From a virus, in IMG/VR virus record IMGVR_UViG_3300046367_000037, positions 1 to 30,086 of that record: a stretch of 30,086 bases of DNA; one strand, 5' to 3'. The notes beneath the pieces were generated by a model that was given only the letters and a program-made list of their open reading frames with translations, was not told the origin of the DNA and did no database searches. Positions 5,044 to 29,347 of this stretch are shown in pieces. The stretch's first letter is position 1, and each line of letters begins with the position of its first letter. The translations under genes were made by a program, and so were the position numbers.

Positions 5044-5757
5044 ATGACCTACGACGAACTCTACGCAAACATCCAAGCGTACACGGAGAACACGTTCCCC
5101 GATACGTACCTTGCTGACGGTACACCTGTGTCTACGCAGACGCAGATTGACACCATCATTAAGCAGGCGGAGCAACGCATCTACAACACGGTGCAGTTCC
5201 CCTCTTTGCGTAAGAACGTCACAGGTGTTTTGACGGCCAACAATAAGTACCTGTCATGCCCCGGTGATTTCCTGTCCACGTTCTCTTTGGCTGTTGTCGC
5301 TGTCGATGGCAGCTACGAGTACCTGTTGAACAAGGACGTGAACTTCATCCGTCAGGCGTACCCTAAACCTACAGATACGGCCTTCCCGAAATACTACGCG
5401 CTCTTCGGCCCAACCACCACAAGCGGCGGCTCACCTGTCATCACAGACGAGTTGTCCTTCATCGTTGGCCCAACACCCGATGCCGCGTACGACGTCGAGC
5501 TCCATTACTACTATTACCCAGAGTCAATCACTGTTGCGGCCGATGGTCACACATGGCTTGGTGATAACTTTGACAGCGTGCTGTTGTATGGCTCTCTGGT
5601 TGAGGCCTACACCTTCATGAAAGGTGAAGCTGACATCATGGCGTTCTATGATGCCAAGTACAAAGAAGCTCTCGGCATGGCTAAGCGTCTGGGTGATGGT
5701 CTGGAGCGCGGCGATGCGTACCGTGACGGGCAGACGAAACTGAAGGTAACGGTATGA
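5044..5757 (+). CDS. Adaptor/connector protein (SU10-adaptor-like)
   Basis: The 237-residue protein begins with the helical pattern MTYDELYANIQAYTEN and QIDTIIKQAEQRIYNTVQFPSL, continues into a beta region (LTANNKYLSCPGDFLS, then ELSFIVGPTPDAAYDVELHYYY), and closes with helices LLYGSLVEAYTFMKG and FYDAKYKEALGMAKR. I associate this layout with phage adaptor proteins of the SU10 type, which form a ring between portal and tail nozzle. A second, longer adaptor-like gene lies at 3267-4199, so the two may form successive rings, or one may be a different connector part. The C-terminal GDGLERGDAYRDGQTKLKV tail is typical of the family. The stop overlaps the next start by four bases. Confidence 0.75.
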   Translation: MTYDELYANIQAYTENTFPDTYLADGTPVSTQTQIDTIIKQAEQRIYNTVQFPSLRKNVTGVLTANNKYLSCPGDFLSTFSLAVVAVDGSYEYLLNKDVNFIRQAYPKPTDTAFPKYYALFGPTTTSGGSPVITDELSFIVGPTPDAAYDVELHYYYYPESITVAADGHTWLGDNFDSVLLYGSLVEAYTFMKGEADIMAFYDAKYKEALGMAKRLGDGLERGDAYRDGQTKLKVTV

Positions 5758-6182
5758 CGATTGCTCAAGGCGCGACCAACACATTCAAACTCGGCTTGCC
5801 CAAGGGTAACTTTGACTTCGATGTGGACACGTTCAAGATCGCGCTGTACACCGGCGCGGCTTCGATCAATTTAGACACCACCGCGTACACAACGGATGGT
5901 GAAGTTGTTGCGTCTGGCTACACGGCTGGCGGCGAAACACTTTCTGTTTCTCAGGCACCAACGATCGGCAACCAGACGGGCGACGCCACGGTATACCTGT
6001 CGTTCAGCAACGTGGTTTGGACCTCGGCACTCACTGCGCGCGGCGCGTTGATCTACAAGTCGGGTTCAGGTAACCCAACGGTCTGCGTTCTGGACTTCGG
6101 TGCGGACAAGACTTCGACAACAACTTTCACGGTGCAGTTCCCCGCTGCTACCGATACAGCTGCGATCATCCGCATTGCATAA
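5754..6182 (+). CDS. Tail/virion structural protein, beta-rich
   Basis: The 142-residue protein starts within an ATGA overlap with the adaptor-like gene. It contains FKIALYTGAASINLDTTAY near the N-terminus, GYTAGGETLSVS in the middle and LIYKSGSG, VLDFGADKTST, TFTVQFPA towards the end. This sequence style is common in uncharacterised phage virion proteins encoded close to tail fibres. By inspection it is all beta with no cysteine pairs or membrane segment. A tail or fibre-attachment role is likely from composition and from the adjacent gene of similar type. Which exact tail part it forms cannot be read from the sequence. Confidence 0.72.
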   Translation: MTIAQGATNTFKLGLPKGNFDFDVDTFKIALYTGAASINLDTTAYTTDGEVVASGYTAGGETLSVSQAPTIGNQTGDATVYLSFSNVVWTSALTARGALIYKSGSGNPTVCVLDFGADKTSTTTFTVQFPAATDTAAIIRIA

Positions 6183-6191
6183 GGACCAACA

Positions 6192-6710
6192 ATGTTTAAC
6201 GAACAAGCAAAAGCTGGCGGTGTGTTCACGGTCCAGTGCCATGACAAAGACGGCAACCTGAAGTGGGAAGACTCTGTTCCAAACCTCGTGGTGAACGAAG
6301 GCTTGCAGAGCATGAACACCCAGTATTTCAAGGGTAGTGCGTACACAGCGGCATGGTACATGGGTTTGATTACCGGCCCCGGCTCAGGTACATCCATCGC
6401 TGCCGCAGATACCTTGGCATCGCACGTAGGTTGGACCGAGTTCACCAGCTATTCCGGCACGCGCCCGGCAATCACATTTGGTACAGCTACAACAGCAGAC
6501 CCATCGGTGATTTCAAATTCTTCGGTACCTTCCTCATTCTCCATCACAAGCTCTGGTGGAACTGTTGCAGGCGCGTTCATTTGCACCGTCACCACAGGTA
6601 CATCTGGCACTTTGTTCTCAGCTTCTGACTTCCAGTCGCCCGGCGACCGCGTGGTTGTGGCTGGTGACACATTGAACGTAACGTACAGCTTCAGCTTAGA
6701 CGCTGCCTAA
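6192..6710 (+). CDS. Tail/virion structural protein with ExxNLVVNEGL motif
   Basis: The 172-residue protein has AAGGA (6181-6185) six bases before ATG 6192. The N-terminal part GGVFTVQCHDKDGNLKWED followed by NLVVNEGLQSM is a pattern I recall from many phage tail-associated proteins. The central WYMGLITGPGSG and HVGWTEFTSYSGTRPAI are also typical, and the end is DRVVVAGDTLNVTYSFSLDA. It appears to be a beta-sandwich virion protein, encoded as a pair with the preceding gene. Function beyond a structural part of the tail, or a fibre base, is not evident. Confidence 0.74.
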   Translation: MFNEQAKAGGVFTVQCHDKDGNLKWEDSVPNLVVNEGLQSMNTQYFKGSAYTAAWYMGLITGPGSGTSIAAADTLASHVGWTEFTSYSGTRPAITFGTATTADPSVISNSSVPSSFSITSSGGTVAGAFICTVTTGTSGTLFSASDFQSPGDRVVVAGDTLNVTYSFSLDAA

Positions 6711-6721
6711 CGGGGTAGCGG

Positions 6722-7339
6722 ATGTTTAGCGGTTCGGCCTTTGCAGCAGCGCCCTTTGCGGCTACGGGGTCGGACACGTTCAACGCAGAAATCAACGAAT
6801 CAGCAAATGCGCTAGAAACGTTTCTGGCGTCTGTAGTATTCAGAGCAAGTGTTGCAGAGACAGCGACAGGTTCAGATTCTGTTAGCGTGGCTGCTTCTTT
6901 GTTTGGCGCGGTCATAGATGAATCCGCAGCAGGCTCCGATTCCGTCACGGTAAGCGCGTCATCTTTTGGTGCCACTATTGAAGAAAATGGCGTGACCGCA
7001 GATTCAGTTACTGTGGCAGCATCTACGTTTGGTGCTTCTATTGCTGAGACAGCCGTAGCCTTGGATGCCGTGTACGCCTATGCTTTGTTCATTTGCGTGG
7101 TTACTGAAAGCAGCACCGTCATTGATGTGGCTACTGCTAGGTTGTTGTGGGAACTCATCAACGACAGTCAAACGGCTGATTGGCAGAACGTTAACGCTTC
7201 GCAGTCTGTGACGTGGAATGGTATTGATGACAGCCAAAGTGCTGGCTGGCAGACGCTTAATACGGCACAATCGACCACATGGGCACCTATCGACGATAGC
7301 GCACCAAACACATGGTCTGACATACCTACATTGGATTAA
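6722..7339 (+). CDS. Repeat protein of the tail region (21-residue and 11-residue repeats)
   Basis: The 205-residue protein is made almost entirely of two repeat types. Residues 25-117 consist of a 21-residue unit, with conserved Glu at positions 46, 67, 88 and 109, an ASxFGA step and a (G/A)SDSV(T/S)V step. A degenerate first copy lies around Glu26. Residues 143-205 have a Trp exactly every 11 positions (143, 154, 165, 176, 187, 198) in the frame W-x2-(I/V/L)-(D/N)-x-(S/A)-Q. A hydrophobic stretch (about 117-128) separates them. Such short periods suggest a fibrous or solenoid structure with stacked Trp residues. Position just upstream of the fibre genes suggests a tail spike or fibre shaft part, or a fibre-binding protein. 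I recognise no specific family. Confidence 0.74.
   Translation: MFSGSAFAAAPFAATGSDTFNAEINESANALETFLASVVFRASVAETATGSDSVSVAASLFGAVIDESAAGSDSVTVSASSFGATIEENGVTADSVTVAASTFGASIAETAVALDAVYAYALFICVVTESSTVIDVATARLLWELINDSQTADWQNVNASQSVTWNGIDDSQSAGWQTLNTAQSTTWAPIDDSAPNTWSDIPTLD
6794..7072 (+). repeat. 63-bp coding repeats (21 residues each)
   Basis: About four and a half imperfect copies of a 63-bp unit encode a 21-residue repeat with the core E-(S/T)-A-x-(G/A)-S-D-S-V. The third to fifth copies are the closest. At the DNA level they share pieces such as TCCGATTCCGTCACGGTAA versus GCAGATTCAGTTACTGTGG but have drifted at third positions, so selection has kept the protein pattern rather than recent duplication of DNA. 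Confidence 0.75.
7148..7336 (+). repeat. 33-bp coding repeats (Trp every 11 residues)
   Basis: Six Trp codons are spaced exactly 33 bases apart at the end of the repeat protein. The unit reads W-x2-(I/V/L)-(D/N)-x-(S/A)-(Q/A) followed by three variable residues. The spacing has no insertion or deletion over the six units, which argues for a regular stacked structure. Confidence 0.85.
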
Positions 7340-7341
7340 AA

Positions 7342-9405
7342 ATGGCAATCGTCGTAAAAGATAGAGTACAGCAAACGTCAACAACGACAGGCACAAGCGA
7401 CTTTGTGCTGACCGGCGCGGTCACGGGCTTCCAATCGTTTGCCGCTATTGGCAACACAAACACCACGTACTACGCAGCTGTTGACCCAGCCACAGGTGAT
7501 TGGGAAGTTGGCACTGGAACATACAGCACCACAGGCCCGACGCTCACACGAACAACAGTTTACGAGTCGAGCACAGGCGGTTCCAAAATTAGCTTTGGCG
7601 CTGGCGCAAAGAACGTGTTCTGCGTGTACCCAGCCGAGCGAGCCATCTATGAAGAGCCTTCTGGCAACACGCTGATTGACGGTGGCCCACTGACAGTTAT
7701 TGGCGCGGGCGTTCCAAGCTACACCAGCTTCTCAGCCGTACTTGCTGAGCTGTATGGCAACGTAGATACCTTTGCGCAGGTATACGCGCAGAACTACAAC
7801 GATGGCGCAGATGCGTCAGCGGACATGATCGTATACCGCGATAACACTGTTGTTGACACGGCCAACTTCATGGACATGGGCATTAACAGCTCAAACTTCT
7901 CGTCCGCAACGTACCCCATTTTTACCCCCAGCTCCATGTACTTGTACGGCGATGGTGGTGAGATGTTTGTTGGTAGCGGCACTGACGATCTGATTTTCTT
8001 TACTGGTGGCGTGGACGTGGCCGACGAGGCGGCTCGCTTCGATAAGACATCAAAGGCTTTGACCACTGTAGGTAACGTGAACGTCGGTGGTGCTTTGGAT
8101 GTCACAGGCGCGGCTACATTTGGTTCTACGGTTCTTCTCGATGCGGACCCTACTCTTGCTTTGCAAGCGGCCACCAAACAGTATGTGGACACTGCGGTGT
8201 CTACCGGGCTGCACGTACACACCCCAGTGTTGGTTGCAACCACAGGCAACTTGACCGCGACGTACATCAACGGCTCTTCTGGTGTTGGCGCTACGTTGAC
8301 AAACTCTGGAGCACAAGCGGCGCTGGCAATTGACGGCGTGAACATGGCTACCAACGACCGCGTTCTGGTGTGGCAACAGAGCGCTCAAGCACAGAACGGT
8401 GTGTACGTTGTCACCACGGTGGGTTCCGGCGCTACGAACTGGGTTCTGACCCGCTCTTCTGATGCGGACACATACTCTCCAGCCGACACGGGCGGTCTTG
8501 GTGGCGGTGACTACTTCTATGTGCAGTCAGGTTCTACCGGCGCTGGCGACTCGTATATCTGTACCAACGACGGCACGATCACATTTGGCACGACGGCCAT
8601 CACGTTCTCTCAGTTCAGTGGTGCGATTACCTACGTTGGTGGCACGAACATTGACATCACGGGCCAGACGATTTCTCTGACTGGCACGGTTGCCCCGACG
8701 AACGGCGGCACAGGTGTAAACACAGTCACGACAGGCGATCTGTTGTACGGCTCAGCTTCAAATACGTGGAGCAAGCTGGCTGCTGGCGGTGGCTACAAGT
8801 CTCTGGTGATGAACGCTGGCGGTACAAACGTCGAGTGGAACGCGGTTGCACTGAACCAATCTGGAGCTGTGTCTGGCTCTTTGGGTGCTACAAATGGCGG
8901 TACGGGCCTCAACTCTTACGCTACGGGCGACTTGATCTATTCAAGCGCGGCAAACACATTGGCCAAGCTGTCTGGCAACATCACGACAACCAAGAAGTTT
9001 TTGAATCAGACCGGTACGGGTTCCGACTCCGCCGCTCCTTCATGGGATACCGTGTCAGCGTCAGACATTTCTGGCTTGGGCACTATGGCCTCGCAGAACG
9101 CCAACAACGTAGCGATCACAGGTGGAACGGTAACCGGCGTAGCAATTTCTGGCGCGTCAACAATCAACGCATCTGTGATTGGTGGCTCAACCCCTGCGGC
9201 CATCACGGGCACAACGGTGACAGGCACTACAGTTTCTGGTACTGTTGCGGTCGTAGCAGCTAATGGCGTGATGGCTATCGCTGCTACAGTGACTGCTGAT
9301 GTGGTGGTCCCAACGGGGTGTAACGTCATCTCTGTCAGCCCTTGGTCAGTAGCATCTGGGGTTTCATTCACGCTGCCATCCGGTAGCCGTCAGGTGATTC
9401 TATGA
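7342..9405 (+). CDS. Long tail fibre/adhesin protein
   Basis: The 687-residue protein begins with a domain I recognise from phage tail fibres (about residues 1-105): VVKDRVQQTSTTTGTSDFVLTG, GFQSFAAIGN, WEVGTGTY and FCVYPAERAIYEE. Around residues 264-283 comes ADPTLALQAATKQYVDT, a common fibre coiled/trimerisation element. Residues about 292-430 form a beta domain (NLTATYING...MATNDRVLVW...WVLTRSSDAD). Two TNGGTG...TGDLxY units follow at about 452 and 516, 64 residues apart, then a GTTVTGTTVSG-like beta-helical stretch and a short C-terminal end. The fibre would trimerise and reach the cell surface. It overlaps the next fibre gene by four bases. It has no chaperone domain itself. Confidence 0.85.
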   Translation: MAIVVKDRVQQTSTTTGTSDFVLTGAVTGFQSFAAIGNTNTTYYAAVDPATGDWEVGTGTYSTTGPTLTRTTVYESSTGGSKISFGAGAKNVFCVYPAERAIYEEPSGNTLIDGGPLTVIGAGVPSYTSFSAVLAELYGNVDTFAQVYAQNYNDGADASADMIVYRDNTVVDTANFMDMGINSSNFSSATYPIFTPSSMYLYGDGGEMFVGSGTDDLIFFTGGVDVADEAARFDKTSKALTTVGNVNVGGALDVTGAATFGSTVLLDADPTLALQAATKQYVDTAVSTGLHVHTPVLVATTGNLTATYINGSSGVGATLTNSGAQAALAIDGVNMATNDRVLVWQQSAQAQNGVYVVTTVGSGATNWVLTRSSDADTYSPADTGGLGGGDYFYVQSGSTGAGDSYICTNDGTITFGTTAITFSQFSGAITYVGGTNIDITGQTISLTGTVAPTNGGTGVNTVTTGDLLYGSASNTWSKLAAGGGYKSLVMNAGGTNVEWNAVALNQSGAVSGSLGATNGGTGLNSYATGDLIYSSAANTLAKLSGNITTTKKFLNQTGTGSDSAAPSWDTVSASDISGLGTMASQNANNVAITGGTVTGVAISGASTINASVIGGSTPAAITGTTVTGTTVSGTVAVVAANGVMAIAATVTADVVVPTGCNVISVSPWSVASGVSFTLPSGSRQVIL

Positions 9406-10493
9406 GTACAGTTATTTCAGCAAGCACAACGCTTAACACGGCGTACAACGTCGTACCAGACACGTCAGGCTCCTTGGCTTTTGCCACGGGCGCTTCACCT
9501 ACTACAGCCGTGACTATTGACTCAAGCCAGAACGTAGGTATTGGCACTGCTTCCCCTGCTGTGAAACTTGATGTGATTGGCACTGTTAGGTCAGCCCAAT
9601 CAGACACAAGCGATGCTTACCTTAGAACGCAAAACTCATTTGGCAATACGTACTATTTGCAAAAGTCAGATAGAGCAACAATTTATACACCAACGACACA
9701 GCCATTTACTTTTGACATTGCTGGTGGCGAACGTATGCGTATTGACACCGCAGGTAATGTAGGTATTGGTACAACAAACCCAACTTCAAAACTTTACGTT
9801 TCATCAACGGGCTTAATCCCCGGTCGTTTTGTATCAACGCAAGCAACTAGCTACCTTGAAATCGACAACGCAACTGGCGGCGCTTTAGTTGCAAGCAATG
9901 GCGATGCTTTAGTGTTTTGCACTTCTGCAAACGGTATAGAACGCGCCCGTATCGACGCCAGCGGTAACTTGATTGTTGGCAGCTCAAATACAAACGCAAC
10001 GATTCAAATTGGTACCGCAGGCTCGACTTTCGGAAACACTTACTTAAACATAGGTGATGGTGTTGCATCCGCAAGATGGCAACTTTCTACAGGCAGCTAC
10101 AACTTAACTTTTGCCCAAAATAACGGGTCAGGAGTTTATGTTGCAAGGTCTCGCATCAATGATGCCACTGGCGCATACGTGCAGCTTTCAGATGCCCGAG
10201 TAAAAACAAACGTTGTTGCATTAGGTAGTGTGCTAGATAAAATTGAGCAGCTCCGTCCAGTTAATTACAGTGTGGTTAATTCGCAAGAAGAGGCAACGCA
10301 TATTGGCTTTATTGCACAAGAAGTTTTGGCTGTTTTTCCAGAATCTGTGCATATACCGAAAGACACAGAGACTGACCACTATGGAATTAACTACGGTGCT
10401 TTTGCGCCGCTTTTGGTTAAAGCCATCCAAGAACAACAAGCCCTAATCACACAACTGCAAGCTGACGTAGCTGCACTCAAAGGCCAAGCATGA
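9402..10493 (+). CDS. Tail fibre with C-terminal S74 intramolecular chaperone
   Basis: The 363-residue protein begins with shaft repeats built on the unit xxID(S/T)xxNVGIGTxxP (about residues 36-52 and 112-127), passes through a variable receptor-binding part, and ends in a peptidase S74 (endosialidase-type) chaperone domain. The domain starts at Ser263 in LSDARVKTNV; the expected self-cleavage is just before this Ser, with Lys268 and Asn270 in the usual positions. HIGFIAQEV, YGINYGAFAPLLVKAIQEQ and a final coiled coil complete it. Released chaperone would be about 101 residues. S74 domains guide trimer folding of beta-helical fibres and then cut themselves off. The part after about 9580 is visibly more AT-rich than the flanks. 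Confidence 0.9.
   Translation: MSTVISASTTLNTAYNVVPDTSGSLAFATGASPTTAVTIDSSQNVGIGTASPAVKLDVIGTVRSAQSDTSDAYLRTQNSFGNTYYLQKSDRATIYTPTTQPFTFDIAGGERMRIDTAGNVGIGTTNPTSKLYVSSTGLIPGRFVSTQATSYLEIDNATGGALVASNGDALVFCTSANGIERARIDASGNLIVGSSNTNATIQIGTAGSTFGNTYLNIGDGVASARWQLSTGSYNLTFAQNNGSGVYVARSRINDATGAYVQLSDARVKTNVVALGSVLDKIEQLRPVNYSVVNSQEEATHIGFIAQEVLAVFPESVHIPKDTETDHYGINYGAFAPLLVKAIQEQQALITQLQADVAALKGQA
9525..9544 (+). repeat. 20-base direct repeat, copy 1 (first fibre gene)
   Basis: AGCCAGAACGTAGGTATTGG occurs exactly here and again at 10634-10653 in the next fibre gene, in both cases encoding the SQNVGIG part of the shaft unit. A 14-base piece (GTAGGTATTGGTAC) occurs again at 9759-9772. Identity at DNA level between otherwise diverged genes could support recombination between fibre modules. 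Confidence 0.9.
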
Positions 10494-12170: not shown

Positions 12171-13211
12171 ATGTCCAGCACCTACTCACCAGACCTGCGT
12201 ATTGAACTCATCGGAACCGGCGACCAAGCTGGTGTGTGGGGCAACACGACCAATACCAACCTCGGCACGTTGATGGAAAACGCTGTTGCGGGCTACACAT
12301 CTGTCAGCATCATTGCGTCCCCACAGGCTTTGACGGCCAACGACGGCGCTTTGGATGAGGCTCGCTTTGCGGCCATCGCTCTGACAACATCCACCGCTGC
12401 AAACTTTACGGTCTGCATCCCACCAAACTCCAAGCTGTACACGTTCTACAACGCCAGCTCTTACACGGCCACGATCTCAAACTCGACGGTCAAGAACGGT
12501 GTCACGCTCAGTGGAGGCACAACAGTAGCCATCCCTGCTGGTAAAACCATGTCATTGTGGTCGGACGGTACAAACGTAGCCCAGCAAACAGACCAACTGG
12601 TTTCACCATCAATGTCTGCGCCAACAATCACCGGTGTATCAGTGGCCCCTACCGCCACCTTTGGCACAAACACAACCCAGCTGGCCACAACTGCTTTTGT
12701 ACAAGCCGCGCTTCAGGCGCTGCATCCAGTCGGCTCAATCTACACCAGCACATCGTCTACCAACCCGGGCACTGCATTTGGCTTCGGTACATGGGTTGCT
12801 TACGGCGCTGGTCGTGTTTTGCTTGGCGCTGGTGGTGGCTATACAGCTGGCGCTACAGGCGGTTCTGCTGATGCAATTACGGTTTCCCACACTCACACCG
12901 CGTCTTCTACTTTTAGTGGTAGCGCACTAGCTGGGCACAGCCACACTGCCACAGACTCTGGCCACAGTCACGGCATTGCTTACAGTGGCACTCTCGGTTT
13001 CTCTGGTGGTGGCGGTTACGGTGGAACGGCTTTTGGCGGCGCTGTAAACCAATCAACACAGTCTGGAACAGCAAACGTTTCTATCTCATCTGTTTCTGCG
13101 GGTACTCCAGCAGGCTCAGTTTCGACAACGGTGGACTCGGCAGGCGCAAGCGGCACAAACGCCAACTTGCAGCCATACGTCGTGGTCTATATGTGGAACA
13201 GGGTTTCATGA
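12171..13211 (+). CDS. Collar-domain tail fibre with His-x-His motifs
   Basis: The 346-residue protein has AAGGA at 12159-12163 as ribosome binding site. Residues 1-180 form a fibre-like N-terminal region (DLRIELIGTGDQAGVWGNTTNTN near the start, typical of environmental phage fibres). At about residue 184 begins a collar-type tip: LHPVGSIYTS, NPGTAFGFGTWV, GAGRVLLGAGGGY. Three His-x-His pairs follow (240/242, 256/258, 265/267) and the C-terminus is NLQPYVVVYMWNRVS, the usual end of such fibres. In the T4 long fibre tip, His-x-His pairs bind iron ions inside the trimer, and the same is likely here. The stop overlaps the HNH gene by four bases. Confidence 0.86.
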   Translation: MSSTYSPDLRIELIGTGDQAGVWGNTTNTNLGTLMENAVAGYTSVSIIASPQALTANDGALDEARFAAIALTTSTAANFTVCIPPNSKLYTFYNASSYTATISNSTVKNGVTLSGGTTVAIPAGKTMSLWSDGTNVAQQTDQLVSPSMSAPTITGVSVAPTATFGTNTTQLATTAFVQAALQALHPVGSIYTSTSSTNPGTAFGFGTWVAYGAGRVLLGAGGGYTAGATGGSADAITVSHTHTASSTFSGSALAGHSHTATDSGHSHGIAYSGTLGFSGGGGYGGTAFGGAVNQSTQSGTANVSISSVSAGTPAGSVSTTVDSAGASGTNANLQPYVVVYMWNRVS

Positions 13212-13606
13212 AAACTTGCTCTTGTAAGTTTTGCGGTTCTGAGTTTCTGGCCTCTAGGTCGGATGCTATTCGCTGCAAGGCGTGCCGTAAAACGTACCTG
13301 AGTGATAGAAATAAGTTACCAGAAACAAGAAAGAGGCGTGCAGAGCAGCACAGAGAAATCCGTGAAAAATTGTTTACTGGTTATGGTGGCAAGTGTGTTT
13401 GCTGCGGGGAAAATAGGTTTGAATTTTTGGCGTTAGACCATGTAAACGGTGGCGGCAACAAAGAGAGAAAAACTTTATCAACCGCACAAATTGCAAGTCG
13501 CGCAATCAAGGATGGGTTTCCAGATAAATTTAGAGTTTTGTGCCATAACTGCAATTGTTCTCACGGCTGGTACGGATACTGCCCTCACGAAAAAGAAACG
13601 GCCTAA
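13208..13606 (+). CDS. HNH endonuclease (second, distinct type)
   Basis: Starting at ATG 13208 in an ATGA overlap, the 132-residue protein has an N-terminal zinc finger (Cys6-x2-Cys9 and Cys23-x2-Cys26), a basic helix, and an HNH core: Cys63-x2-Cys66, catalytic Asp77-His78 in LALDHVNGGG, and Cys112-x2-Cys115 in LCHNCNCSHGWYG. A start at 13193 would run further into the fibre gene and is less likely. This family is different from the HNH at 611-1198. The gene is more AT-rich than its neighbours (26 of 60 bases G/C at 13321-13380 by my count), suggesting later arrival. It probably nicks or cuts DNA at a specific site as a free-standing homing endonuclease. Confidence 0.9.
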   Translation: MKTCSCKFCGSEFLASRSDAIRCKACRKTYLSDRNKLPETRKRRAEQHREIREKLFTGYGGKCVCCGENRFEFLALDHVNGGGNKERKTLSTAQIASRAIKDGFPDKFRVLCHNCNCSHGWYGYCPHEKETA

Positions 13607-20663: not shown

Positions 20664-21788
20664 ATGTGCGGTTCAAGTAGCCCAGCAGGCCCATCGTCGT
20701 CGACAACCAACACGTCGAACATCCCCGAATACGCACGCCCGTACGTAGAGACGATGCTGGGTGCGACCCAGAAACAGTTGTTTGACACCAAGCAAACTGG
20801 CGGTACCCCCACGTATGACGAGATGGGTAACCAAACAGGCATGACCGGTCAGACCACAGAGATCACCGGCATGAAGGGCTACAACCCTTACAGCAACAAC
20901 ATGAACGACTACTTCGCTGGGGCCAGCCCCATGCAGGAGCAAGCGTACCGTGGTGCAGCCAACCTAGGCCCGACACAGCAAACCGCTGACGCATCCACCA
21001 TTGCCGCGCAGTCAGGCCTTGGCGCCTTGAACATGCAGTACAACCCGATGGGTGCCGGTTCACAGAACTTTGGCAACCGCGCGGCGGCTCAGTACATGAG
21101 CCCCTACGCCATGCAGGCGCTGCAACCACAGCTCCAAGAGCAAGCGCGTGCCTCTCAGATTGCCGGTCAACAACAAGCAGCTGAAGCCGTGGGTCGTGGC
21201 GCGTTCGGCGGCAGCCGTGACGCTCTCATGCGCGCGGAGCGCGAGCGCAATCTGGGTATCCAGCAAGGCAACACAATCAGCACCGGCTTGAACACGGCAT
21301 ACAACAACGCCATGCAGCAGTTCAACCAAGATCAAGCGCGTGCGATGCAGGCACAGCAAGCCAACATCGGCCAGCAACAGTTTGGTGCGAACCTCGGGCT
21401 TCAAGGCTTGCAGGCGGCAAACGCAGCTGCCGGTACGTTGGGCACCTTGGGTCAACAAGAGTTCGGTCAAGAACAAGCCGCCATCGGCTTGCAGAACCAG
21501 CTCGGCACGCAACAACAGCAGCTGGAGCAGAACAAGATCAACCAGCAGATTCAGAACTACGCGACTGGTCAGCAGTGGGGCATGCAGCAGCTCTCCAACA
21601 TGAACGCCATGTTGCGCGGCTTGCCTTTGCAAACAACCTCAACGCAGTCGTACCAAGCGGCGCCTTCAACTGCGTCTCAACTGGCTGGTCTGGGTACTGC
21701 GGCCTACGGCGTGAGCAAAATGGCTGGTGGTGGTTCCGTGAACGCTCCGTCAGGCTTGGCCGACTTGGCAATCTACAACATGGCTTAA
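20664..21788 (+). CDS. Gln-rich putative internal virion (ejection) protein
   Basis: The 374-residue protein has a polar N-terminus (MCGSSSPAGPSSSTTNTSN), an early YARPYVETMLGATQKQLF helix, a stretch rich in Tyr, Asn and Pro, then a long helical region of about 200 residues very rich in Gln, Ala and Asn (QQQFGANLGLQGLQAANAAAG and similar). It ends GTAAYGVSKMAGGGSV...YNMA with the Ala-Gly-Gly-Gly motif shared with its neighbours. The Cys at position 2 is not preceded by a signal sequence, so it is not a lipoprotein. Such Gln/Ala-rich helical proteins are typical of phage internal core or ejection proteins. Position among the ejection cassette supports this. Confidence 0.74.
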   Translation: MCGSSSPAGPSSSTTNTSNIPEYARPYVETMLGATQKQLFDTKQTGGTPTYDEMGNQTGMTGQTTEITGMKGYNPYSNNMNDYFAGASPMQEQAYRGAANLGPTQQTADASTIAAQSGLGALNMQYNPMGAGSQNFGNRAAAQYMSPYAMQALQPQLQEQARASQIAGQQQAAEAVGRGAFGGSRDALMRAERERNLGIQQGNTISTGLNTAYNNAMQQFNQDQARAMQAQQANIGQQQFGANLGLQGLQAANAAAGTLGTLGQQEFGQEQAAIGLQNQLGTQQQQLEQNKINQQIQNYATGQQWGMQQLSNMNAMLRGLPLQTTSTQSYQAAPSTASQLAGLGTAAYGVSKMAGGGSVNAPSGLADLAIYNMA

Positions 21789-23206: not shown

Positions 23207-23239
23207 GCACATTTATGGGTTACTCACTGCTGATTGACT

Positions 23240-26200
23240 ATGGCCAACTACCTGCCCCTCCCTGACGGTTCACGTTTACGTATTCCAGAAGGCATGTCCG
23301 AAAACGAAGCGATGCAGAAAGCACGCGTAAAGTTTCCTGACCTGTTCCCCAAACAAGGCGGCATGATGGGGGCCTTGGGTAAAGGACTTGAGTCCACCCT
23401 GTCAAGTATGCGCACCGGCCTCGGTGCCCTGACCTCCCCAGAAGAAGCCGCCCAAGCAGGCATTGAGCGCGGCCAAGACATCAACAGTCGCTACGCCGAA
23501 GAAGTCAGCTTCGACAAAGTCCGTGAAGCCTACGACAAGAACGGCATCATCTCAGCAGCCAAAGAAGCGCTAGGCCAAGTCCCCAAAGCAATCGCTGAAC
23601 AGGCGCCCAACATTGCAGCTACTCTGGGCGGTGCCCGCCTTGGCGCCATGGCTGGTTCTGCTGTTGCTCCCGGCGTTGGTACCGTTGTTGGTGGTGTGGC
23701 CGGTGCGTTGGCTCCTTCGCTCTTGCAGCAGTTCGGTGGCAACATTGAGCGCCAACAAGCCGAAGGCGCCCCAATCAATCGTGGTGCTGCCGCTGCGGCC
23801 GCAGTCCCCCAAGCCGCGCTAGACGCCGCTGGTACCTTTATTCCGTTGGGTGGCAAGTTGGTGAGCCAACTCACAGGCATCCCAATCAAGGGTCTGGCCA
23901 ACAAGGGTGCAGCCAAACTGGCTGACGAGTCTCTCAAGAAGACGTTGCTCAAAGGTACGGCCATTGGTGCCTTGGCTGAAATCCCCACCGAGATCACACA
24001 GCAGATGTTGGAGCGCGCGCAAGCCGGCCTGTCCTTGACCAGCCCAGACGCTCTGAAAGAATACGGCGAGACCGCGTATCAAGTTGGTCTGTTGGCACCC
24101 ATCGGTGCAGTCGGCCGCTTCTCCGATAAGGGCGCAGCCCAACAAAAAATCAAGGAAGAGCAGGACGCCAAGGACTTGGCTGCTGCCGAGGAAGCAAACA
24201 AAGAGCCGTTGCAGATCGGCTACACGCCGCAGATCGCAGGACCCAACGCTGAGCCTCGCTTTGAGATTGCACCCCAGCCTACCCCCGACGTGATGGACTT
24301 GATCGGCAAACACGATGCCCTCGTCCCGCAGATGGATGCGCTGCAAGAGCAGATCAAAGAAGCCGGTGTTGCCGGTGACACGGCCAAGCTCGCTGAGTTG
24401 ATGCCTCAGTTCGACAAGATTCAGACAGACATGCAGCTCCTGACGGCCACCGTCGAGCAACTGGGCGGCACAACAAAGCCCTCCGCTGAGCTGGAGACAG
24501 AAGCGCAGACGCAGCTTACCCAAGCAAACAAACAAGTGGCCGCCGCACAAAAAGCGTTGGCCAAAGCATCCGAACTCGGCGAGTGGCAGCAGATTCCAAA
24601 GCTCAGCGCCAAGCTGGACGCAGCACGTCAGAACGTGACCGCCATCCAAGAGAAGACCCAGCAGCAGTTGCAGATGCGCCAGGTCGCAGAGACACCGAAG
24701 GGTGAGACACCCGGCCTGTTTGAGAAGCCGCCAGAGCAACCAAACAAACAAGATCAGGAGGCTGATCTTAAAAAAGCCGAAGCCGAGCGCGGTCTCTATG
24801 GCCCAGAAAGCAAAGCCGAGTCGGCCAAGCAAGCGTTCACCGAAGCAGAAGTTGGCCCACGTGGCCAGCTCGAAGCCGCTCCCGCAGAGCACGTTGCCTC
24901 CAAAGACAAAGCCACGCTCGACTTGTTCAGCCCAAGCAACCTCTACAACACTGCGTTGGAGAACCAAGATTGGGAAGGGGCCATGGCCGCTGCCGGCTCG
25001 TTTGCTCCCGAGAAGAAAGACACCAACGCCGAGGCCATTGAGCGCGAGCGTTTGATTAAGCAACTGGACGAGCGCCTGAACCTCCCCGGCCTCAAGAGCA
25101 CACGTGCCGCTCCAGAAGTCGTTGCCAAGACCATGGACAAGATCGACGCGCTCAAACGTAAGGTCGAGAACCCACAGCGCAACGCTAAGAAGTCTTGGTT
25201 GACTGACCTGTACGAGTCCGCTGCCGACTACGAGGCCATGGCTGCCCGCATGAAGTCTGGTGTGGCGCTGCCCACCGAAGCGGAGAAGGTTGCCCGTCTG
25301 GATGCCAAGCTAGGTAAAGGCAAAGCACCAGAAGTGCGGCAGATGGATGCAGCTGAGCGTTATCAACTCCAGCGCAAGATGGACTCAGCGTTGAAGCGCT
25401 ACGAGAACGCCTTGGCCAAGATCACACCGGTGCGCAACGAGATCGAGAAGGCGTACAAGCAGTTGTTTGATGTGCAGAAAGCGGCCCCAGAGCGCGATGT
25501 GCGCGAAGCCAAGAAGGCCGAAGCCGACGAAGAAGCCCGTGGCGCCAAGCCAGTGTCGCGCGCAGCGCGTACCGCCGCCCGTATCAACCGTGGTGATGTT
25601 GTGCCCGAGGCGGAGAAGACAGCCAAGATGCAAGAGCTGGCCACTAGCTTTGGTAAAGAGACAGAAGAATACGCTCGCACCAAGCGCATGCTTGCGCAGC
25701 GCGTCAAGAAGTTACAGGACAAGTACGGCAAAGGTGACCGTCACGTGACGGAGTACACCGACTACGCCCGCATTGAGCTGAAACAAAAAGCGATCGAGAT
25801 TGGCCGCAAGTCGCCAGAGTACAAGACCGCGCTTAAAGAGCAGGTCAAGTACTTGCAAGAGGTGTATGCCTCGGCCGGTAAGCAAGAAGTCAAATCCAAG
25901 CGCGACAAGTCGCCGACCATGCGCAAGCAGTCCGCTGCACCTGAGCGTTTCATCACTGGCTCCCCAGAGAGTAAGGCCCGCACGTCCGAGAAGCAAGAGC
26001 GCTACATGGAGTCCTTGAAGGATGCCTACGAAGCAATCAAGTCCGAGAACGACGGCACCTATGGTGAAGGCAACTGGCGCACAGCCCCACGCACCAACGG
26101 CATCAAGCTGGACGAAGCACAGAAAGTCATCGACGGTTTGAAGCTGCCCAAGGGCATCAAGTTCGTCTACGCCGAGTCGCTGGACGATGCCCCCAAAGAG

Positions 26201-29200
26201 TTCTACATGGAAGCTGCGGCCCAAGGCTTGAAGCACATGGACCTGCTCGACAAGAAGGGTGTGGTCTTGAAGGACGGCACAGTGATCGTCATCGGTGCGC
26301 ACCACGCCAACGTGAAAGACCTCGAAGCCACCATCGCTCACGAGTTGATCGGCCACTACAGTGTTCAAGGTTTGCTGGGCAAGAAGGGTATGGCCGACTT
26401 GATGAAGACCATCGACACCCAACAAGGTGGCGTGCTCAAGCTCGCCGATGACCTAGGCGTTGGTATCCAAGTGCGCAACGCGATTGCCGAAGCCAAAGAA
26501 GGCGGCGCAAGCGATCTCGACTCCCGCTATGTGGGTATGCAAGAGATGCTGGCCTACGTCGAAGAACAGCGTGTCACCGAGGACTTCTTGGCTAAGGCCA
26601 AGCGCTTCTTGAAAGAGATCGTCGGCGCCGTGCGCAAGGCGTTCCGTGACATAGGCCTCATCAACACAGCCGAGCTCAGCACCAGCGATATGTACAAGCT
26701 GTTGCGCGACGCACGAAAGCAATTCAACGAAGGCAGCACCGGCGCATACCGTGACCCCAACGGCGGCTTGCTGTTCCGCAGCGGCGCCAAGAGCACGGCC
26801 AAGCACAGCATCACAGCCAAACCTTCCACGCTCAAGGACAAGATTAAGGCCAACTTCTTCGGTCTGGGCGCACGCCAGCAGTTCGTGGACAGCTACGCTT
26901 CGATCGACTCGGCCATCCGCGCCGGCATGGACAAGAATATGCTGACCTCCATGGAGGGCGAGCAAGCCATGTACTACCTGCGCTTCACCGAGCAGCGTAG
27001 CCAATACGTCGGCCAGTTCGTGACGAACGGCCCCGTGTCGCTTGAGTCACAGAAGACACCACGCGGCACCGAGTACGTATTCAAGTCCAAGAAAGGCCCG
27101 ACCTTGATGAAGGTCGCTGAGCTCGCCGGCAAGTCTGGTCTGGGCAACGAAGCCACCATCGAAGACTACCTGACCTCATACCTTGTTGGTCAACGTGCCA
27201 ACGCAGTGGGCTGGAGCAAGCTCGGCAAGAGCGAGAAGGAAGCTCGCGCCGCTTACCAAGAAGTTATGGACAAGCTGGCCGCCAACCCCAAGGCCAAGAC
27301 AGCGTTCGAGGCAGCGACCAAAGAGTACAAGGCATACAACGACGGCCTCATTGACTTCTTGGCACAGTCCGGCGCGATCAGCCGTGGCAAAGCCGCTGAG
27401 TTGAAGTCCAAGCCATACGTGCCGTTCTATCGCGAGAAAGACGGCAACGTCGAGCTCGTAGTCGATGGTGAATCCATCCTGCGCATCGGCAACATCAAGA
27501 ACCAACCACAGCTCAAAGAGTTGCTGGGCGGCGATGAAAAGGTCATGCCGCTCTACGAGAGCGCTATGCAGAACACCGCCATGATTACCGACATGGCTCT
27601 GCGCAACATCAAGACCAAGAACACAGCGTACGCGTTGAAGAAGGTCGGCATCGTGAGCCGCGTCGGCGACGGCAAAGGCCCTGCTGACCCCAGCATCGTG
27701 CGCTTCTATGAGCACGGCGAACCCAAGTATGCGGTCGTTGACAAAGACGCCTTCGGCATCCCAGCTGAGCTCGTGGTCAAGTCCATGGAAGGTATCGCCA
27801 CCACCATCCCCGCCGTCGTGCGTTTGATGGGCTACCCAGCTGACTGGCTGCGCCAGTTCGTGACCCGCAACCCAGCGTACGCTGTGCGTCAGACCATTCG
27901 TGACCCGTTGTCTGCATGGCTCACCACCGGCACGGACTCAATGCCTGTGCTCAGCTCTCTGAAAGAACTCAGCAAGATGGTGGGCGGCCGCAGTGCAGCG
28001 GAGACAAAGCTCATGGAGTCTGGTGCGATTAGCAGCAACGTGTTTACAGGAGACTCCAAAGACTTGAAGACCTTCCTGCGCGACATCTCTGCTGGCAAGT
28101 CTGGCTGGGAGAAAGCCATGGCCAAGCTCGACGCCTTCGCTTTGCAGGGTGATTCGGCTACCCGCGCGGTGATCTACAACGAAGCGATCAAGCAGGGCAT
28201 GACCGAGATGCAGGCCCTGACCCGCACCCTTGAGTCCATGAACTTCTCGCGTCGCGGCTTGTCACCAAGCATGCAGGTGCTCTCCACGCTCATCCCGTTC
28301 TTCAACGCACAGATTCAAGGTCTGGACGTGCTGTACCGCGCCTACAAAGGCCAGATGCCGTTCGAGAAACAACTCCAAGTGCGCGAGAAGATGTTGAAGC
28401 GAGGCACCATGCTGGCCGTGGCCGCCGTTGCCTACGCCGCGCTCATGCAGGACGACGAAGCGTACAAGAACGCCAAACCCGAAGAACGTTATGGTAACTT
28501 CTTCCTGAGCATCCCGGGCATCGACGAACCAATGCGCGTGCCACTGCCGTTCGAATTGGGCTACATCTTCAAGGCGCTGCCCGAGGCGATCTACAACATG
28601 GCAGTCGGCGACGAGAAGGCCAGCAACGCCATGGCCGGTATCGGCAAGCTGTTCGCTCAGTCCAACCCGTTTGGTCTGCCCCAAGCTATCAAACCAGCGA
28701 CCGAAGTCATCCTCGGCAAGTCGTTCTACTCAGGCGACATCGAGTCGGCGCGTGACAAGCAAGTGCTCCCCACCGAGCGCTACCGCGACAACACGTCTGA
28801 GCTGAGCAAGATGATCGGCAGCGTCACAGGCGAAGTGGGCCTGAGCCCCGTCAAGTTGGATTACCTGATTCGCGGTTACTTCGGCAGCTTGGGCGTTGCG
28901 TTGGCTCAGATCGCCAACCCTGTTCTGGCCAGCACACCTGAGAAAGAAGTGGCCAAGCCAACCACCAAGGTCAGCCAGATGCCAATCATCGGCTCGCTGT
29001 TCCAACCCATCGAAGGTCGTGGCCCTGTGGATGAAGCCTACGCCAAGATGGAGGAAATCAAGCAAGCCAAGGGTACCTTCACACGCTTGGTCGAGCAAGG
29101 CAAACAAGCCGAAGCCCGTGCGTTCGCTCAGCAGTATTCGACAGAACTGGCCATGGCCAGCACATCGGGTGCCGTGTATAAGCGACTCGGCGAGCTGGCG

Positions 29201-29347
29201 AAGCAAGAGCGTGCGATCAAGGCCAGCGCCAACATGGATACACCGCAGAAAGACGAAGCGCTCAAACGCATCGCCGAAGCGAAGATCAAGTTGGCTCGGA
29301 TGTTGACTCAGGCTTCCGACCGCGCCTCTCAAACAGAACGCCAATAA
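23240..29347 (+). CDS. Giant polyvalent internal virion (ejection) protein with zincin-like and LPD38-like domains
   Basis: ATG 23240 gives 2035 residues; the upstream TTG at 23234 is an unlikely start. Visible regions in order: an N-terminal motif (YLPLPDGSRLRIPEGMS, residues 4-20); a Gly/Ala-rich hydrophobic region (about 120-165, and further hydrophobic helices to about 300); long charged coiled coils (about 350-900); a zincin-like site with His1034-Glu1035-x3-His1039 (HELIGH) and a possible third ligand in MQEMLAYVEE (Glu1102); a helical region; an LPD38-like part (about 1530-1700) with FVTRNPAYAVRQTIRDPLS and PFFNAQIQGLDVLY; a hydrophobic segment (about 1720-1740); and a PLPFELGYIFKALPE element. 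Polyvalent proteins of this type are carried in virions and delivered to the cell with DNA. Here it probably combines channel formation with an enzyme activity. Confidence 0.86.
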   Translation: MANYLPLPDGSRLRIPEGMSENEAMQKARVKFPDLFPKQGGMMGALGKGLESTLSSMRTGLGALTSPEEAAQAGIERGQDINSRYAEEVSFDKVREAYDKNGIISAAKEALGQVPKAIAEQAPNIAATLGGARLGAMAGSAVAPGVGTVVGGVAGALAPSLLQQFGGNIERQQAEGAPINRGAAAAAAVPQAALDAAGTFIPLGGKLVSQLTGIPIKGLANKGAAKLADESLKKTLLKGTAIGALAEIPTEITQQMLERAQAGLSLTSPDALKEYGETAYQVGLLAPIGAVGRFSDKGAAQQKIKEEQDAKDLAAAEEANKEPLQIGYTPQIAGPNAEPRFEIAPQPTPDVMDLIGKHDALVPQMDALQEQIKEAGVAGDTAKLAELMPQFDKIQTDMQLLTATVEQLGGTTKPSAELETEAQTQLTQANKQVAAAQKALAKASELGEWQQIPKLSAKLDAARQNVTAIQEKTQQQLQMRQVAETPKGETPGLFEKPPEQPNKQDQEADLKKAEAERGLYGPESKAESAKQAFTEAEVGPRGQLEAAPAEHVASKDKATLDLFSPSNLYNTALENQDWEGAMAAAGSFAPEKKDTNAEAIERERLIKQLDERLNLPGLKSTRAAPEVVAKTMDKIDALKRKVENPQRNAKKSWLTDLYESAADYEAMAARMKSGVALPTEAEKVARLDAKLGKGKAPEVRQMDAAERYQLQRKMDSALKRYENALAKITPVRNEIEKAYKQLFDVQKAAPERDVREAKKAEADEEARGAKPVSRAARTAARINRGDVVPEAEKTAKMQELATSFGKETEEYARTKRMLAQRVKKLQDKYGKGDRHVTEYTDYARIELKQKAIEIGRKSPEYKTALKEQVKYLQEVYASAGKQEVKSKRDKSPTMRKQSAAPERFITGSPESKARTSEKQERYMESLKDAYEAIKSENDGTYGEGNWRTAPRTNGIKLDEAQKVIDGLKLPKGIKFVYAESLDDAPKEFYMEAAAQGLKHMDLLDKKGVVLKDGTVIVIGAHHANVKDLEATIAHELIGHYSVQGLLGKKGMADLMKTIDTQQGGVLKLADDLGVGIQVRNAIAEAKEGGASDLDSRYVGMQEMLAYVEEQRVTEDFLAKAKRFLKEIVGAVRKAFRDIGLINTAELSTSDMYKLLRDARKQFNEGSTGAYRDPNGGLLFRSGAKSTAKHSITAKPSTLKDKIKANFFGLGARQQFVDSYASIDSAIRAGMDKNMLTSMEGEQAMYYLRFTEQRSQYVGQFVTNGPVSLESQKTPRGTEYVFKSKKGPTLMKVAELAGKSGLGNEATIEDYLTSYLVGQRANAVGWSKLGKSEKEARAAYQEVMDKLAANPKAKTAFEAATKEYKAYNDGLIDFLAQSGAISRGKAAELKSKPYVPFYREKDGNVELVVDGESILRIGNIKNQPQLKELLGGDEKVMPLYESAMQNTAMITDMALRNIKTKNTAYALKKVGIVSRVGDGKGPADPSIVRFYEHGEPKYAVVDKDAFGIPAELVVKSMEGIATTIPAVVRLMGYPADWLRQFVTRNPAYAVRQTIRDPLSAWLTTGTDSMPVLSSLKELSKMVGGRSAAETKLMESGAISSNVFTGDSKDLKTFLRDISAGKSGWEKAMAKLDAFALQGDSATRAVIYNEAIKQGMTEMQALTRTLESMNFSRRGLSPSMQVLSTLIPFFNAQIQGLDVLYRAYKGQMPFEKQLQVREKMLKRGTMLAVAAVAYAALMQDDEAYKNAKPEERYGNFFLSIPGIDEPMRVPLPFELGYIFKALPEAIYNMAVGDEKASNAMAGIGKLFAQSNPFGLPQAIKPATEVILGKSFYSGDIESARDKQVLPTERYRDNTSELSKMIGSVTGEVGLSPVKLDYLIRGYFGSLGVALAQIANPVLASTPEKEVAKPTTKVSQMPIIGSLFQPIEGRGPVDEAYAKMEEIKQAKGTFTRLVEQGKQAEARAFAQQYSTELAMASTSGAVYKRLGELAKQERAIKASANMDTPQKDEALKRIAEAKIKLARMLTQASDRASQTERQ

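Follow-up and report, generated by a model that had tools for sequence, protein, structure and literature searches.

In phage SU10, residues Trp839, Trp847 and Trp857 of a nozzle loop form a quasi-threefold star, in which each Trp contacts a single chain of the short fibre, a trimer (PMC9509320, in the part of that report cited here). Siphophage tape measure proteins contain 11-residue Trp/Phe repeats which, in the cited part of PMC3271669, are said to anchor partner proteins. In this study, we describe a family of proteins with a C-terminal ladder of Trp residues, starting from the IMG/VR virus record IMGVR_UViG_3300046367_000037, whose 30,086 bases were analysed as a whole (hereafter the window). 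Literature searches, as far as the listings tell, returned no description of a Trp-ladder repeat family, and neither virion proteomics nor a structure, nor any other experiment, was found for any of its members. The family is real, conserved and modular, and is without a name in the libraries searched. It comprises at least 173 distinct ladder proteins in environmental phage sequences, including the cultured SAR11 phages HTVC023P and HTVC027P.

The ladder gene and its neighbourhood

The features of the locus are as follows.

5044..5757, + strand: SU10-type head-tail adaptor (PF24175, E 8.8e-22)
5754..6182, + strand: neighbour gene, phrog_644, unknown function
6192..6710, + strand: neighbour gene, phrog_8123, related to PDB 26la/44nx chain (E 1.8e-7)
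6722..7339, + strand: Trp-ladder protein gene (P0001), 205 aa plus stop; 54 distinct closed relatives
6722..6769, + strand: N-terminal motif MFxxxxFAxAPFAxxG, residues 1-16, F type (alignment A1)
6770..7147, + strand: shaft, residues 17-142, 21-residue repeats (self-match lag 21, z 7.2)
7148..7336, + strand: C-terminal Trp ladder, residues 143-205, unit W-x2-I/V-N/D-x-x-Q-x3, six rungs
7342..9405, + strand: fibre-like gene, 687 aa, DRV-type N-terminus (MAIVVKDRVQQT...)
9402..10493, + strand: tail fibre with S74 intramolecular chaperone
12171..13211, + strand: fibre, TGxxxGxWG-type N-terminus, Gp10_C domain; in sister lineages, fibres of this type come after the ladder gene

The 7342 fibre-like gene begins 3 nt past the end of the ladder-gene stop codon. 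On the other side, the product of the 6192 gene is a relative of chain U of PDB 26la/44nx (E 1.8e-7), and over the matched residues that chain has the same sequence as a protein found in Pseudomonas phages KPP25 (ORF007), CRPAP1904 and R4900a. Because this chain bears the name 'Structural protein', it follows from the name, which is all that is used here, that the phrog_8123 kind of neighbour is a virion component. Scans for promoters and terminators found fewer sites here than in shuffled sequence. Elsewhere in the window, a small ORF downstream of the fibre genes (13193-13606) has CxxC pairs and, by eye, an HNH-like stretch, and is perhaps a homing endonuclease. A relative of a DNA ejection protein is encoded at 20664-21788 (phrog_4287, E 3.2e-7), and a 2037-aa ORF with a TTG start at 23234-29347 (phrog_18222, unknown function) is perhaps a large ejected virion protein.

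The ladder protein begins with MFSGSAFAAAPFAATG..., continues with 21-residue shaft repeats such as ETATGSDSVSVAASLFGAVID / ESAAGSDSVTVSASSFGATIE / ENGVTADSVTVAASTFGASIA, and ends with the ladder WELINDSQTAD WQNVNASQSVT WNGIDDSQSAG WQTLNTAQSTT WAPIDDSAPNT WSDIPTLD. It has six Trp residues in total, at 143, 154, 165, 176, 187 and 198, so that the original prediction of six Trp residues 11 apart from 143 to 198, with no insertion, is exact in the ORF at 6722-7339. For six randomly distributed Trp among 205 residues, even spacing with a step of 40 or less has a probability of 4e-8. The Glu residues at 46, 67, 88 and 109, which had been taken to mark a 21-residue period, are correctly placed (other Glu residues stand at 23, 26, 32, 87, 129 and 144), and the top self-match of residues 1-140 is at lag 21 (z 7.2), followed by lag 42 (4.4). 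For residues 143-205, the top lag is 22 (z 9.3) and the second is 11 (5.6); the stronger period within the window ladder is thus 22 residues, or two rungs, and not 11. At the DNA level, Tandem Repeats Finder detected nothing between 6600 and 7400, which indicates that the period is held at the protein level.

Relatives in the lineage of the window

Queried with the ladder protein P0001 itself, the search for relatives gave 17 pattern matches, of which 0 were confirmed. Relatives were obtained through the upstream 6192 gene, for which 77 loci were entered from the best 80 of at least 592 relatives; 74 of them had a following ORF, which was ladder-type in 69, closed in 63 and distinct in 54. Because they were found through the upstream gene, these 54 relatives were not selected for the ladder. 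All of their Trp gaps in the last 80 residues (192/192) are of 11 residues, and hence the spacing is kept by homologues in the lineage of the window, a point on which the original prediction had staked itself beforehand. Moreover, exactly 7 residues follow the last Trp in 49 of the 54 proteins. Protein length ranges from 162 to 540 aa, and the rungs number six (24 proteins), four (19), three (4) or two (7). The best shaft lag in this lineage is 20 in 46/55 sequences and 21 in 5/55. The 21-residue shaft of the window is therefore a local variant, and the two strict periods first proposed, 21 and 11, are both present in a refined form, with lag 22 the stronger one in the ladder.

The next long ORF (the longest ORF beginning within 250 nt) encodes a DRV-type fibre in 61/61 loci with sequence, the window included, and 3 more loci reach the contig edge. 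In 59 of these 61 loci, the fibre gene begins 3-13 nt past the end of the ladder gene; the remaining two distances are -3 and 43. The ladder gene is missing from its usual place in five loci, and of the 4 contigs searched (all but L095), two (L086 and L138) gave no ladder-gene match and two (L087 and L091) had the gene at another site, that of L091 being cut by the contig end. In L087, the relocated ladder gene stands again just before a fibre, of the TGxxxGxWG type. At another locus, L073:5926-6573 and the next ORF are tandem ladder-type ORFs, the second beginning before the end of the first, which would be a duplication or a frameshift.

Sister lineages

The ladder of the DSL-LC04 protein WJZ48131.1 is 57% identical to that of the window over 35 aa (E 1e-3). 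A query with WJZ48131.1 gave 76 closed and 62 distinct proteins among the best 80 of 115 loci, and a query with the six-rung ladder only gave 61 distinct closed proteins among the best 80 of 156 loci. The DSL-LC04-derived set has a 22-residue TGVxATG-type shaft and a ladder as in the window, with Trp gaps of 11 (137), 12 (9) and 43 (1) residues (n=147). The best shaft lag is 22 in 62/62 and 69/75 sequences of the two sister sets. The A3 profile, built from a sister lineage, matches the window ladder at 7202-7327 (E 2.6e-4) and 7139-7216 (E 0.002), and the A1 profile matches sister-lineage proteins in stretches that take in the ladder. Because A1 reaches the sister proteins and A3 finds the window ladder, the ladder is common to lineages with different shafts.

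Each of 20 records searched has a single ladder gene, detected by A1 in 19 of them and by A3 in the other; record G010 has an additional short shaft-like match in a different ORF. A1 is without a match in HTVC023P, HTVC027P, 023Pt_psg01 and MW202675, all four of which are matched by A3. Two Trp residues stand 15 apart in HTVC027P. HTVC023P gp68, HTVC027P gp68, the 150-aa gene of 023Pt_psg01 and DSL-LC04 WJZ48131.1 each precede a fibre of the TGxxxGxWG type or a tail gene. A scan of genome contigs added a single MAG contig, 3,851 bases long. Five IMG/VR records (G005, G007, G009, G010 and G011) have two SU10-adaptor relatives above the cut-off per record, about 0.4-0.9 kb apart.

Modularity and linkage to fibre genes

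The F and WG N-termini, the 20-21- and 22-residue shafts and the fibre types occur in several combinations, a common one being an F start with a 22-residue shaft and a TGxxxGxWG fibre. Many sister members have a WG-rich start in place of the F-type motif, and L238 has a WG start with a 20-residue shaft. Automatic typing misplaced L092, L135, L139, L155 and L156 (A shaft), L127 (F start), and L217, L219 and L222 (B shaft), to which the fibre counts below are insensitive. Across ladder proteins the N-termini are of the F or WG type, LYTN repeats or Gly-rich, and the ladder is constant. The rare N-terminal parts are the L[YF]TN repeats of L218, an extra stretch of about 190 residues in L236, which has no Pfam or PHROG match, and a Gly-rich stretch in L251, cut by the contig end, which has weak matches (E 0.028 and 0.0059). 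In L218:1849-3192, a third repeat type, LxPSLYTNTQTFYSATV, stands ahead of a TGV shaft and the ladder. Since N-termini, shafts and fibres are variously combined, the ladder is the constant part.

The next long ORF is a fibre for 158 of the 173 distinct ladder proteins, of the DRV type in 53 and of the TGxxxGxWG type in 105, counts that are not independent within one clade. Of the remaining 15, 7 are at a contig edge and 8 have another next ORF (a small CxxC ORF in five cases, a hydrophobic ORF in two and a second ladder ORF in one). A gap of 219-228 nt before the fibre, with room for a small ORF, is found in 40/64 loci with a downstream ORF.

Parts of this architecture are also seen without the ladder. 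L169:1-642 (MW202675) has a matching tip and shaft type, and its ladder is replaced by WNGxxW units, another Trp-rich C-terminus. In Venkman (MT375522, 26573-26809), A1 matches the tip and shaft positions (E 1.1e-4) of a 742-aa frame annotated as FhaB-like, without a ladder. CRP-901 gp53 (L165:6060-7004) has a TGV-type repeat shaft and a C-terminal GWGxxxWGxxxWG motif, and lies just upstream of the adaptor; its N-terminal domain resembles HTVC023P gp55 (47% over 60 aa). The layout of gp53 indicates that the shaft and the WG motif can also stand in the reverse arrangement.

Rung number

The variation of repeat number among relatives for which the original prediction had called is found, in that ladders have 1, 2, 3, 4 or 6 rungs. 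Counted by Trp alone, so that ladders interrupted by a 12-residue gap or a Tyr score shorter, 133 distinct ladders (window apart) have six (59), four (42), two (15), three (14) or one (3) rungs, and none has five or more than six. The third of the contributing sets was fetched by a six-rung query; the first, the neighbour-gene set, was not chosen by the ladder, and by Trp alone it has six (20), four (18), two (7) or three (4). Two apparent five-rung ladders and one of seven rungs were set aside, because a shaft Tyr had been counted as a rung. Clustering by shaft identity at 90% gave 121 clusters, with a ladder of four in 40, of six in 48 and of five in none. Clusters with both four and six rungs numbered 9, 4 and 2 at 60, 75 and 90% shaft identity, respectively.

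The missing five, the lag of 22 in the window, the WYWYWY alternation in L235 and the alternating units of L099 are hints that the structural unit of the ladder is 22 residues. Lag 22 scored above lag 11 in 41 of 61 ladders with at least six rungs, and below it in 20. However, the pooled test did not confirm a 22-residue unit, since under its same-permutation null a value as high as that observed arises in 19% of cases, and the unit therefore rests on the single cases (window, L099 and L235) and on the missing five. Ladders of size three and single-unit differences do occur (L103, L104 and L121).

Library searches and structure models

The window protein had no match better than E 0.12 in the libraries searched. 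Among 40 A1 members, there was a single match each to phrog_12240 (E 9.4e-6), of unknown function, and to phrog_26778 (E 0.0014); one of 23 A2 members matched phrog_11583 (E 0.0017), and two of 36 A3 members matched Pfam CTD, a repeat model (best E 7e-4). None of these was taken as a home family. DHR14 designed helical proteins, matched by the A1 profile in the PDB (E 8e-4), were rejected as an effect of Ala-rich composition, single stretches giving E 0.24 or worse, and A2 had no PDB match at E 1.

The AlphaFold2 model of the window protein on A1 is unreliable (pLDDT 51.6, pTM 0.24), with strands in the shaft and weak helices over the ladder; a fold search with it gave no match at E 0.001. The model of the sister protein L017 on A3 (pLDDT 60.7, pTM 0.49) has a shaft of repeating strands predicted as a beta-solenoid (pLDDT 60-71) and a ladder mostly without secondary structure (pLDDT 45-59). 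The modelled shaft had no significant Foldseek match (best E 1.2), and aligned by VIA-align with single-chain beta-helices at Z 12.0-13.4 and rmsd 3.0-3.4 over 171-184 residues. The arrangement predicted for the 22-residue sister shaft resembles those of the SufBCD complex chain (5awg_B), FHA (1rwr) and HxuA (4i84), at 5-12% identity. AlphaFold tends to turn beta repeats into solenoids, and for this reason the model is only suggestive of a beta-solenoid in the sister shaft. With regard to the two-part rod beside fibre genes that was originally proposed, its architecture and the DRV fibre next to it (61/61 loci) stand, and the beta character of its shaft is favoured by the sister model and not by that of the window. 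The stacked solenoid suggested for the Trp ladder itself found no support in either model.

Discussion

We propose, at even chances, that the ladder protein is an elongated tail-associated spacer whose C-terminal Trp ladder offers a docking track to a partner, either a fibre or a tail component. It would be a virion protein of three modules, in which a short tip at the N-terminus is joined to the ladder by a beta-rich spacer whose length varies. Each unit of the ladder would present a Trp, with an Ile or Val at +3, both seated in repeated pockets of the partner. The constant partner would most likely be the N-terminal part of the downstream fibre or the tail subunits that hold that fibre, and the length of the spacer would set the distance to the N-terminal tip. 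Which end faces outward we infer from variability alone. The proposal builds on the fixed Trp spacing, on a ladder that stays the same behind spacers and tips that differ, and on a fibre gene nearby in almost every case. The SU10 dock loop is its physical precedent, and the tape measure repeats, whose unit is more hydrophobic, are another. Some support for the proposal comes from the upstream gene, with its relationship to the solved chain named 'Structural protein'. That the ladder is constant while N-termini and shafts are swapped points to a constant partner, and for this reason fibre anchoring is preferred over carbohydrate binding. Fibres of these N-terminal types are present in records with no A1 or A3 match (Pag-Yong1, CRP-6 and MW202481) or with only shaft-like matches and no ladder (Venkman and CRP-901), which suggests that such fibres do not, as a rule, require the ladder for docking; however, ladder absences are not firm, because A1 misses four records found by A3. 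Moreover, ladders of two and four rungs do not fit a simple rule of three per trimer, the strict spacing has exceptions in the sister set (gaps of 12 and 43) and in HTVC027P, and MW202675 pairs the tip and shaft with another Trp-rich C-terminus.

Exposed rows of Trp are common in carbohydrate binders, and the ladder protein could in principle be a rod whose Trp row stacks on sugars of the host surface, the extra N-terminal stretch of L236 being a possible adhesin. We regard this as unlikely: the ladder is C-terminal while the N-termini vary, it is common to phages as different as DSL-LC04 (a lake record) and HTVC023P (a SAR11 phage), unlike a usual receptor-binding surface, and the ladder proteins scanned had no match to carbohydrate-binding families, an absence that does not exclude one. 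Glycan binding by the ladder is accordingly the less likely reading. The tight linkage to the fibre gene, which starts within 3-13 nt in 59/61 loci, and the low confidence of the window monomer model would also suit a non-virion assembly factor for the downstream fibre, such as a chaperone or trimerisation helper. This too we consider unlikely, since a repeated shaft whose length varies as strongly as this one (162-540 aa) is typical of spacers and not of chaperones, and fibre assembly genes usually lie after the fibre gene. The adaptor and the 7342 gene have additional matches to virion-structural and head-decoration PHROGs, which would favour a decorating fibre of the head or collar rather than a tail part. 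This is quite unlikely in view of the tail-type fibre that is the next long ORF nearly everywhere, also after relocation.

The shared strict spacing of Trp at 11 residues, with Ile at +3, together with weak tblastn matches to Paenibacillus, Enterococcus and Staphylococcus tape measures (E 0.2-4), recalls a ruler of the tape measure kind, whose Trp/Phe repeats would anchor small auxiliary proteins. Several observations make this very unlikely. The ladder unit has Q, S, T or D at the hydrophobic positions of the tape measures, and Pro is commoner in ladder units (51/192, 87/127 and 260/278 in three sets) than in the stretches of two tape measures (5/30 and 2/40). The protein is of 205 aa and lies among fibre genes, an SU10-type adaptor is present in 7/7 records, and a scan directed at the sheath gave a match in 0/10 records. 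At the sequence level, unit make-up and Pro counts do not agree with helical repeats with a hydrophobic core, and in place of a long gene among tail-tube genes there is a 205-aa gene between adaptor-side and fibre genes. Judged in this way, the ladder protein is not a tape measure protein.

Beyond the docking proposal itself, it is conceivable, though doubtful, that the ladder is a quantised docking module built of 22-residue units, each of two non-equivalent rungs and mostly present as two or three units, with five rungs forbidden and six the limit. The rung number would then set how many fibre chains or tail subunits are held per molecule, and phages would swap fibre partners around a constant ladder. 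The rung numbers form a natural series with one number missing, and the family provides a testable rule by which a row of equal contacts may fix a virion part.

Among known systems, HTVC023P gp68 (QGZ17697.1) and DSL-LC04 WJZ48131.1, both annotated as hypothetical proteins, are relatives of the window protein. The window protein has what marks that family, a C-terminal Trp ladder, a repeat shaft and a fibre or tail gene next to it, and shares the tip as well; unlike the window protein, these two have a 22-residue shaft of the TGV/TGS type. With the siphophage tape measure repeats, as they appear in the cited part of PMC3271669, it shares the 11-residue period, Trp with Ile at +3, a variable number of rungs and a proposed anchoring role, and it differs in its polar, Pro-containing unit, its short length and its place beside fibres. 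With the loop by which the nozzle protein gp17 of SU10 docks the short fibre, as described in the cited part of PMC9509320, it shares a Trp row on one chain, at about one per ten residues, and the two phages share an adaptor family. The gp17 loop lies inside a large beta-propeller and has three Trp residues 8 and 10 apart, whereas the ladder belongs to a separate 205-aa protein that is not part of a nozzle beta-propeller, in a family with one to six rungs spaced at 11. By analogy, the ladder perhaps works like the SU10 dock loop.
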